In this document: positions 11,055-12,983 of the stretch, piece by piece | Position numbering within the stretch: position 1 is the first letter of the stretch | Layout of the letters: every line of letters starts with the position of its first letter | From: Paracoccus sp. IB05 | GTDB taxonomy: Bacteria > Pseudomonadota > Alphaproteobacteria > Rhodobacterales > Rhodobacteraceae | DNA length: 64,000 nt | Direction: 5' to 3' | Assembly (NCBI RefSeq): GCF_016405985.1 | Contig: NZ_JAEFCF010000006.1 | Coordinates: forward strand, 62,001-126,000 | The notes under the pieces: generated by a model | Database searches by the model: none | Told to the model about the DNA's origin: nothing | Seen by the model: only the letters and a program-made list of their open reading frames with translations | Position numbers and translations under genes: made by a program

Positions 11055-11948
11055 TTAAAGACGTGGCGGCAAAGTGAGGCCTTTGAGCACCTCGGCGGCA
11101 GGCATCGGTTTCTTGCCCTCGCGCTGCGCCTCGGTCACCGTCACCGCCCCCTCACCACAGGCGATGGTGAAGCCGGACAGCACCTCGCCGGGCGCTCCCG
11201 CACCGGCATCGATCCGGGAACGCAGCAGCTTCACCCGTTCCGCTCCCACCTGTGTCCAGGCCCCCGGAAAGGGCGAGAGACCGCGGATCTGGCGGTCGAT
11301 CACATCGCAGGGGCGTGTCCAGTCGATCTTTGCCTCGGCCTTGTCGATCTTCGCGGCGTAACTTACGCCCTCTTCGGGCTGGCGAACCGGCACGAGCCCG
11401 TCCAGCTGGTCAAGCGCCGCGATCATCGCAGCGGCGCCCAGTGCGGACAGGCGGTCATGCAGATCGGAGGCCGTCTCCTCCGCACCGATCCGGGTTTCTT
11501 CGCGCAACAGAACCGGGCCGGTATCAAGCCCCGCCTCCATCTGCATGATACAGATGCCGGTTTCCGCATCCCCGGCCATGATCGCGCGCTGGATCGGCGC
11601 CGCACCGCGCCAACGCGGCAAAAGCGAGGCATGGATGTTCAGACAGCCCCGCGCCGGCATGTCCAGCACGACCTGGGGCAGGATCAGCCCGTAAGCCACC
11701 ACCACCGCCACATCGGCCTTCAGCGCGGCAAACACCGCCTGATCCTCGGGCGCGCGCAGTTTGTCGGGGGTATGAACCGTCAGCCCGAGCGCCCCGGCAC
11801 GGGCATGGACCGGGGTTTTGCGCAGCTCTTTGCCGCGCCCGGCGGGCCGGGGCGGCTGCGACCAGACGCCGACGACCTCATGCCTTGCATTCAGCGCCTC
11901 GAGCACCGGCACCGAAAACTCCGGCGTGCCCATGAAAATCACCCGCAT
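11055..11948 (-). CDS. fmt: Methionyl-tRNA formyltransferase
   Basis: 297 residues. Fmt formylates initiator Met-tRNA using 10-formyltetrahydrofolate. The N-terminal [19 protein letters not shown], the [17 protein letters not shown] loop and the catalytic block [20 protein letters not shown] (Asn-His-Ser residues) are intact. The C-terminal OB-like domain contains [19 protein letters not shown]. It is the last gene of a three-gene minus-strand set def, def-like, fmt. This is the logical order for formylating and deformylating nascent proteins. The gap to the def-like gene is 10 bp, so they are surely co-transcribed. Confidence 0.97.
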
Positions 11949-11958
11949 CCGCGCCTCC

Positions 11959-12462
11959 TCAGCCGCGTTTGCGGAGCTTCTCCGCCTTCGCGATCAGCAT
12001 TTTCCGTTTCAGGGGCGAGAGATGATCGAAATACATCTTGCCCGCCAGATGGTCGATCTGGTGCTGCGCCGATGTCGCCCAGAGATGCACGAAATCGCGC
12101 TCTTCGATCTGGCCCTCTGCGTTCAGGAACCTGACCGTCACCGCGCGCGGCCGCGTCACCCTGGCTGAGACGCCCGGCAGATTGGGCGAGGCCTCTTCAT
12201 GGTCACGCGGCTGCACCGAAGCATGGATCACCTCGGGATTGGCCATCAGCACCGCCTGGCCGCGCGCCTCGGAACAATCCACCACAGCCAGCCGCAACGG
12301 AACCCCGATCTGCACGGCGGCAAGGCCGTAGCCCGGCATCGCCTCCATCGTATCAACCATGTCGCGCCAGATCGCACGCACCTCATCGGTGATCTCCGCC
12401 ACATCCGCCGCCGGCGCCTTCAGCACCGGATGCGGGTAAGGCACACAGACACGAACCGCCAT
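11959..12462 (-). CDS. Peptide deformylase-like protein lacking metal and catalytic residues
   Basis: 167 residues, the same fold and length as peptide deformylase and aligned without gaps to the neighbouring def across the motifs. Motif I reads [10 protein letters not shown] instead of GVGLAAPQIG. In motif II, EEGCLSIP is EEASPNLP, so the metal-binding cysteine (Cys92 in the neighbour) is Ser92. In motif III, QHEIDH is QHQIDH, so the catalytic Glu135 is Gln. The two metal histidines (134, 138) remain. It is therefore probably inactive as a deformylase. ATG 12462 overlaps the stop of def (TGATG), implying translational coupling. Possible roles are a pseudo-enzyme partner of Def or a different ligand-binding protein; sequencing error is unlikely, as the frame is clean. 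Confidence 0.85.
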
Positions 12463-12983
12463 CACATGCCTTCCGAACGCGCGCGTTCGCGCTTCAGCTT
12501 TTCCATCTTGCGGGTGATCATCTGGCGCTTCAGCGGCCCGAGATAGTCAATGAACAGCTTGCCGTTCAGATGGTCGATCTCATGCTGGACGCAGGTGGCC
12601 CAGAGCCCTTCGAAACTGCGCTCATCGGTTTTGCCATCGAGCCCCGTCCAGCGCACAGTAACCAGCGAAGGGCGCTTCACCTCGGCATATTGATCCGGAA
12701 TGGAAAGACAGCCTTCCTCATAGATGTTCAGATCTTCCGAGGACCAGATGACCTCGGGGTTGATCAGCGCCATCGGCTCGGGCGTGCCCTCCTTGATGCA
12801 ATCCATCACCAGAAGCCGCTTCATCACACCGATCTGCGGCGCGGCCAGGCCAACGCCCGGCGCATCATACATGGTTTCCAGCATGTCATCGGCCAGCCTG
12901 CGGATCTCGTCCGAGACCTCGGTCACGGGATCGCAGAGCTTTTTCAGGCGGGGATCGGGATGGATCAGGATGGAGCGCAACAT
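12462..12983 (-). CDS. def: Peptide deformylase
   Basis: 173 residues. It removes the formyl group from the N-terminal Met of new proteins at the ribosome exit. All three motifs are canonical: GVGLAAPQIG (residues 43-52), EEGCLSIP with ligand Cys92, and QHEIDH with ligands His134 and His138 and catalytic Glu135. The basic C-terminal tail (RKMEKLKRERARSEGM) is typical of ribosome-binding Def proteins. It is the first gene of the def, def-like, fmt operon. Its stop overlaps the start of the degenerate paralogue. Confidence 0.97.
   Translation of the reverse strand: MLRSILIHPDPRLKKLCDPVTEVSDEIRRLADDMLETMYDAPGVGLAAPQIGVMKRLLVMDCIKEGTPEPMALINPEVIWSSEDLNIYEEGCLSIPDQYAEVKRPSLVTVRWTGLDGKTDERSFEGLWATCVQHEIDHLNGKLFIDYLGPLKRQMITRKMEKLKRERARSEGM

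Follow-up and report, generated by a model that had tools for sequence, protein, structure and literature searches.

The window analysed here is a whole stretch of 64,000 nucleotides of the Paracoccus sp. IB05 contig NZ_JAEFCF010000006.1. Its minus strand carries, in this order, the peptide deformylase (PDF) gene def, whose product we designate D1, a second PDF-like gene with the product D3, and fmt. Def takes the formyl cap off new proteins, and Fmt is the enzyme that puts it on. The features relevant to this work are as follows:

11959..12462, minus strand: D3, predicted pseudo-peptide-deformylase of 167 aa, with an ATG start inside a TGATG overlap with def
12462..12983, minus strand: D1, canonical def, 173 aa, with the motifs GVGLAAPQ, EEGCLS and QHEIDHL intact
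11055..11948, minus strand: fmt, coding for a methionyl-tRNA formyltransferase of 297 aa that scores 264.1 bits in TIGR00460 (cut-off 201.5)
12184..12198, minus strand: remodelled motif II, D3 residues 89-93 (E-E-A-S-P), with S92 in place of the metal Cys and P93 in place of Leu (placed by codon count)
12049..12066, minus strand: remodelled motif III, D3 Q133-H-Q-I-D-H138, with Gln135 in place of the catalytic Glu (placed by codon count)
11962..12015, minus strand: residues 150-167 of D3, a basic helix at the C-terminus that corresponds to the PDF ribosome-docking helix (helix at 150-166 in the structural model)

The def stop codon and the D3 start codon have one base in common (TGATG). A GGAAGG sequence was read six bases 5′ of the D3 start, and a GGAGG sequence lies directly 3′ of the D3 stop and five bases before the fmt ATG. 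Direct reading of the DNA agreed with the first-pass annotation of D3 in its coordinates, strand, length of 167 aa, TGATG coupling to def and the position of fmt as the next gene; the alignment of D3 with Def, which that annotation had called gap-free, in fact contains a one-residue gap, at 45% identity (74/164). D1 and D3 were the only matches to Pfam PF01327 in the whole genome, D3 scoring 132.3 bits (E 1.5e-38; cut-off 22.8). An AlphaFold2 model of D3 (pLDDT 93.8; 87.9 for the model of D1) predicted a PDF fold with TM scores of up to 0.93 to PDF structures, the best PDB match being 5j46 (TM 0.92). D3 fell below the cut-offs of the five other PDF models that it matched, and it passed the NCBIfam equivalog model TIGR00079 pept_deformyl (115.4 vs 103.95 bits), so that an annotation pipeline using this model would call the window's D3 a peptide deformylase despite its lost catalytic residues. 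Here a curated equivalog model for active PDF accepts a protein without them.

The residues of D3 were compared by alignment with those of E. coli Def, a type 1B PDF. Ser92 stands at the position of the metal ligand C90 of the E. coli enzyme, Pro93 at that of L91, Ser131 at that of C129 and Gln135 at that of the catalytic E133; the metal-binding His134 and His138 (E. coli H132 and H136) are kept, as are Gln51 (Q50), Glu90 (E88) and Arg104 (R102). Out of 148 known D3 genes, 99 were read letter by letter, each from a different genome and chosen by whole-protein or profile score without motif selection; the 49 left out were mostly of middling score, and the counts exclude three repeat loci (L168, L169 and L181) and two loci in which D1 is cut by the locus end (L009 and L015). 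The results showed that S92, P93, S131 and Q135 were present in 99/99 D3 genes together with both metal His residues, just as in the first 29 orthologues, whereas D1 carried C, L, C, E, H and H at the same positions in 99/99. Motif II of D3 read E-[AG]-S-P-[NC] throughout (residue 91 Ala in 82 and Gly in 17; residue 94 Asn in 93 and Cys in 6) and motif III read HQxDH throughout, and the EGCLS with its metal Cys and the HExxH of active PDFs were absent from all 99. The D3 proteins of genomes G013 and G016, at 51-52% identity, had the same substitutions. A set of 80 named loci (from Pseudogemmobacter, Gemmobacter, Tabrizicola, Rhodobacter, Cereibacter, Roseovarius, Pseudooceanicola and others) agreed in 80/80 and was not counted as evidence of invariance, since these loci had been found through the two motifs. 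Given that the substitutions are invariant in 99 orthologues from different genomes, they are not due to chance. The alignment thus bore out the changes of Cys92 to Ser and Glu135 to Gln with retention of His134 and His138 that had been noted earlier from the window alone. The window's D3 does have the motif I change from Pro to Val noted with them, yet this is no hallmark of the group, in which 69 of 99 have P, 27 have V and 3 another residue. The statement that exactly the Cys and the Glu were lost proved too narrow, because Pro93 in place of Leu and Ser131 in place of Cys are equally fixed. In PDF, the backbone NH of L91 and Q50 hold the formyl oxygen; with Pro in the place of L91, the hydrogen bond from that backbone cannot be donated.

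The same positions bear on the idea that D3 is an enzyme with a new chemistry, in which the two His residues would hold a metal and Ser92, Gln135 and Pro93 would serve another N-terminal group or ligand. Such an enzyme would fit the invariance of the substituted residues and of both His, Asp137, Gln51, Glu90 and Arg104 (99/99 each), and His at residue 88, just before motif II, could be a new ligand (79/99). We nevertheless judge it quite unlikely: Gln has replaced the Glu that acts as general base, the third metal ligand is lost as well, the columns fixed only in D3 add no new acidic residue or His, and residue 88 is not fixed, being Y in 12 and W in 6 of the 99.

D3-level matches were found in 119/121 genomes of an order sample, all of which bore one family code, and in 32/36 genomes of a family sample, the other four comprising two with a PDF and no D3 and two in which no PDF was found. 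When both samples were pooled, 148 of 154 different family genomes carried D3. A PDF was present and D3 absent in G026, G029, G121 and G167, and no PDF was found in G020 (82% complete) or G031 (91% complete). In the four PDF genomes without D3, def and fmt are 2 to 40 bases apart and D1 keeps all catalytic residues. In a class sample, 4/289 genomes matched D3 at a cut-off of 1e-56, and all four were from the window's family (family was listed for 24 of the 289, namely the 4 matching and 20 of the 285 others); the most divergent D3 proteins known here, at 4.1e-64 and 1.8e-68, would pass this cut-off. Profile scores, by which the D3-level matches were told from D1, separated the two groups in the order sample, with D3 at 244 bits or above and the best D1 at 184, and the two most divergent D3 proteins scored 217 and 231 bits against 190 for the highest D1. 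Within the window's genus, D1 and D3 were found in 13/13 genomes and a third PDF in 8/13, the window's genome not being among the eight. In two members of the genus the PDF cluster seems to be rearranged: the third PDF of G005 (G005:C45:87180-87632) is on a contig other than that of D1 and D3, and the best D1 match of G010 (G010:C95:18387-18761) is a partial one that lies near the contig end, some 8 kb away from D3 and on the opposite strand. Across the 99 D3 loci, 59 contain a middle paralogue, here D2 (e.g. L016:1016-1501 and L029:1004-1495), with the metal C92 in 59/59 and the catalytic E135 in 58/59. A tree of 128 rows, drawn from 43 loci of the family, 39 of them with D3, and from 20 outgroup proteins, the bootstrap of which had not fully settled, placed D3 in one clade (support 100/100) with a long stem followed by short branches; D1 and D2 did not form single clades on this tree, and the outgroup PDFs, from other families of the class, carried the catalytic Glu in 20/20. 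An origin of D3 from phages or mobile elements was rejected: 34 pattern matches in viral contigs included no relative, all 53 matches in phage records had less than 60% identity, and so did 850/851 matches in plasmid records, the remaining one (75%) being on a 1.58-Mb replicon of Pseudorhodobacter turbinis. One record with a Rhodobacteraceae-type def-D2-D3 cluster is titled as the chromosome of an Exiguobacterium profundum MAG (L127, CP059262.1), and its species name is probably wrong.

The reading frame of the upstream PDF overlaps the start of D3 in 81/99 loci, by 4 nt in 55/99 and by 1 nt in 21/99, and where D2 is present it is D2 that overlaps D3. With fmt starts set by alignment with the window's fmt and not by start codon, fmt begins within 100 nt after D3 in 86/93 loci and farther away in 7/93; the other 6/99 loci have no fmt in the stretch read and were left out of this count. 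The main rival to the interpretation developed below is that D3 serves Def as a subunit, structural or regulatory, in a heterodimer of pseudoenzyme and enzyme that would stabilise, activate or position D1. The 4-nt and 1-nt overlaps with the upstream PDF gene would fit co-translational assembly, although the overlapping gene is D2 wherever that paralogue is present. Gene duplication often leaves one active and one inactive paralogue, and D3 has residues of its own at Trp32 (99/99) and Met42 (98/99), where D1 has Ala in 94/99 and 99/99, respectively. PDFs are, however, known as monomers, the D1 proteins of the four genomes without D3 are catalytically intact in sequence, and the strictest conservation of D3 falls largely in the three motifs, and a subunit of this kind is therefore unlikely in our view.

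In order to judge selection on D3, close pairs were preferred because all or moderately distant pairs inflate dN/dS through saturation and codon bias. In 18 disjoint close pairs, median dN/dS was 0.113 for D3 and 0.095 for D1, with D3 above D1 in 13/18 and reaching 0.33; among 49 close pairs it reached 0.525. The 15 pairs formed by six members of the genus gave 0.05-0.15 for D1 and 0.03-0.15 for D3, and wider, saturated pairs gave 0.314 for D1, 0.415 for D3 and 0.638 for D2. No stop codon was found inside the D3 matches of the family and order samples with one apparent exception in G017, where the TAG comes from a match running past the stop and the open frame is of 164 aa. Thus neither stop codons nor dN/dS near 1 in sister species, named beforehand as the signs that would speak against a selected role, were found, and the earlier proposal that D3 is selected for a role that does not use canonical deformylase chemistry is supported, as far as sequence can tell, by the intact frames and by a dN/dS of D3 near that of Def. 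The serines at the remodelled positions were also informative at the codon level. Ser92 is encoded by AGY in 56 and by TCN in 43 genes, and Ser131 by AGY in 38 and TCN in 61, and on a D3 tree built without columns 92 and 131 there were at least 17 switches between the two codon families at Ser92 and at least 19 at Ser131 with the residue unchanged, against 6 and 2 at the invariant D1 Ser columns 82 and 94 used as control; these were quick trees of short proteins, and the switch numbers are rough. Since the path between AGY and TCN runs via Cys, Thr or a double change, serine itself is favoured. If the ancestor had Cys and this turned into Ser many times over, the codon trace would look alike and the conclusion would stand. 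Mean entropy at the D3 motif positions was 0.20 against 1.15 for the rest of the protein, and 0/10,000 random sets of positions were as low, which argues that the former active-site pocket still matters. The results leave very little room for D3 as a decaying duplicate kept as a spacer for def-fmt coupling: the genes are tightly coupled, and coupling alone can hold a frame open, but purifying selection is near that on Def, the substituted residues are invariant, and def and fmt lie within a few tens of bases of each other where D3 is missing, so that we consider this reading largely refuted. A recent pseudogene was likewise rejected, as the frame is open in all 99 genes read and constraint is strong. 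Together, the loss of catalytic residues, the purifying selection and the single origin indicated that D3 is, by the evidence of its sequence, a selected and conserved pseudoenzyme of the peptide-deformylase family.

The C-terminal helix points to where such a protein might act. In E. coli, the C-terminal helix of PDF sits in a groove between uL22 and L32, with L149, K150, R153 and K157 contacting uL22 and K160 and R163 contacting 23S rRNA (PMC12690207, main text), and the PDF site on the ribosome overlaps that of MAP, with which PDF competes (PMC8712518). All 99 D3 proteins have a basic residue at the positions of K150, K157 and K160, and likewise at the adjacent position of Q151. At the R153 position, 94/99 D3 have Met, as do 74/99 D1; a basic residue stands at the R163 position in at least 34/99 D3 (R in 21, K in 13; gap in 31) against 99/99 D1, and the L149 position is Thr in 14 of the 99 D3. 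Net charge of the C-terminal tail has a median of +7 in both D3 and D1 (range 5 to 9 in both), whereas in D2 the median is -1 and 51/59 tails are zero or negative. D3 thus appears from its residues to retain a basic helix of the docking type, though not every contact residue, and this helix lends indirect support to docking of D3 on the ribosome. D2 evolves fastest of the three paralogues (mean identity 0.49, vs 0.71 for D1 and 0.65 for D3), and in 59/59 it carries Arg where the Met pocket of E. coli Def has I44. Given this Arg and the missing basic docking helix, D2 may have a preference for a different substrate and work away from the ribosome.

The reading of D3 that we favour, tentatively and with somewhat less than even confidence, is that of a ribosome-docked, non-cleaving competitor or reader that tunes Def. 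D3 would be made together with Def and Fmt through translational coupling and would dock at Def's site beside the tunnel exit, its pocket would hold or screen N-termini with the formyl group left on, and it would lower or time deformylation and the removal of Met by MAP on some nascent chains. A docked D3 that does not cut would occupy or read the site for which PDF and MAP compete, and could set the rate or the selectivity of deformylation. Several points complicate this reading. Loss of the metal Cys and the change of Leu to Pro may also weaken formyl-peptide binding, in which case the pocket may have another ligand; D3 keeps, on alignment, three of the six published E. coli docking contacts and is incomplete at the R153 and R163 positions; D3 is dispensable somewhere, being absent from four PDF genomes in which def and fmt are direct neighbours; and dN/dS of D3 is mostly above that of Def in close pairs. 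The three paralogues divide the features of a PDF among them, D1 having the helix and the catalytic motifs, D2 the motifs without the helix, and D3 the helix without the catalytic residues. A division of labour along these lines, in which D1 docks and cuts, D2 has cutting motifs without the helix and D3 is a dedicated, non-cleaving occupant of the PDF site at the tunnel exit that may read or shield formyl-methionine and so set how long chains stay formylated, is possible but doubtful.

Among the known systems close to D3 is PDF itself (PF01327; E. coli Def), which D3 resembles in predicted fold, both metal His, Gln51, the C-terminal helix and an operon with fmt, and D3 differs from E. coli Def in that Ser replaces the metal Cys, Pro replaces L91, Gln replaces the catalytic Glu and Ser replaces C129 in 99/99. 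Type 3 PDFs are described as accessory and weak or inactive, S. aureus and S. pneumoniae each having one as their second PDF (PMC12690207, main text). D3 is like them, so far as that description goes, in that its motifs are altered and the genome encodes it in addition to an active PDF. By the same description, type 3 proteins are altered in motifs I and II, whereas D3 is altered in motifs II and III, with a variable Pro or Val in motif I, and lies inside the def-fmt cluster. If D3 were a deformylase of low activity, or one that works under stress or with a different metal, as has been suggested there for type 3 PDFs, it would have a precedent in the T. brucei type 3 PDFs with altered motifs that are cited as active (PMC12690207, main text); we find this improbable for D3, in which the metal Cys, the L91 equivalent and the catalytic Glu are all replaced in 99/99, unlike the alterations in motifs I and II described for type 3. 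As regards inhibitors, D1 of the window's family has Tyr (78/99) or Phe (21/99) at the E. coli R97 position. In V. cholerae Def1, R97Y lowers actinonin susceptibility, and Tyr is the reduced-susceptibility residue of Vibrio Def2 (PMC12690207, main text). By analogy with this effect, it is possible that the canonical Def of the family is naturally less susceptible to actinonin. A role for D3 as a decoy or buffer for natural PDF inhibitors is very improbable, because hydroxamate inhibitors bind PDF via its metal, the metal ligand set is altered in D3, and D1 already has the Tyr or Phe described above. Inhibitor pressure has been proposed as a driver of accessory PDFs, which would favour such a decoy (PMC12690207, main text).

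Clustered PDF genes have been reported in 98.1% of Rhodobacterales reference species, with three genes in 62.5% of these genomes, and the rationale of these clusters was called elusive (PMC12690207, 2025, main text); the D3 loci are very probably the same loci. In the parts of that paper considered here, neither the loss of catalytic residues in one member nor a split of helix and motifs between members is described, and a full-text literature search for pseudo-deformylase gave a single, unrelated paper. D3 is a conserved, disarmed PDF paralogue inside this known cluster. This makes the elusive purpose of the cluster a testable question, since the near-universal extra copy is disarmed and conserved and the optional copy has catalytic motifs without a docking helix. 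If D3 tunes deformylation, we know of no earlier protein regulator dedicated to this essential step. The strict preservation of its changed active site suggests that D3 has a real regulatory job at the ribosome.
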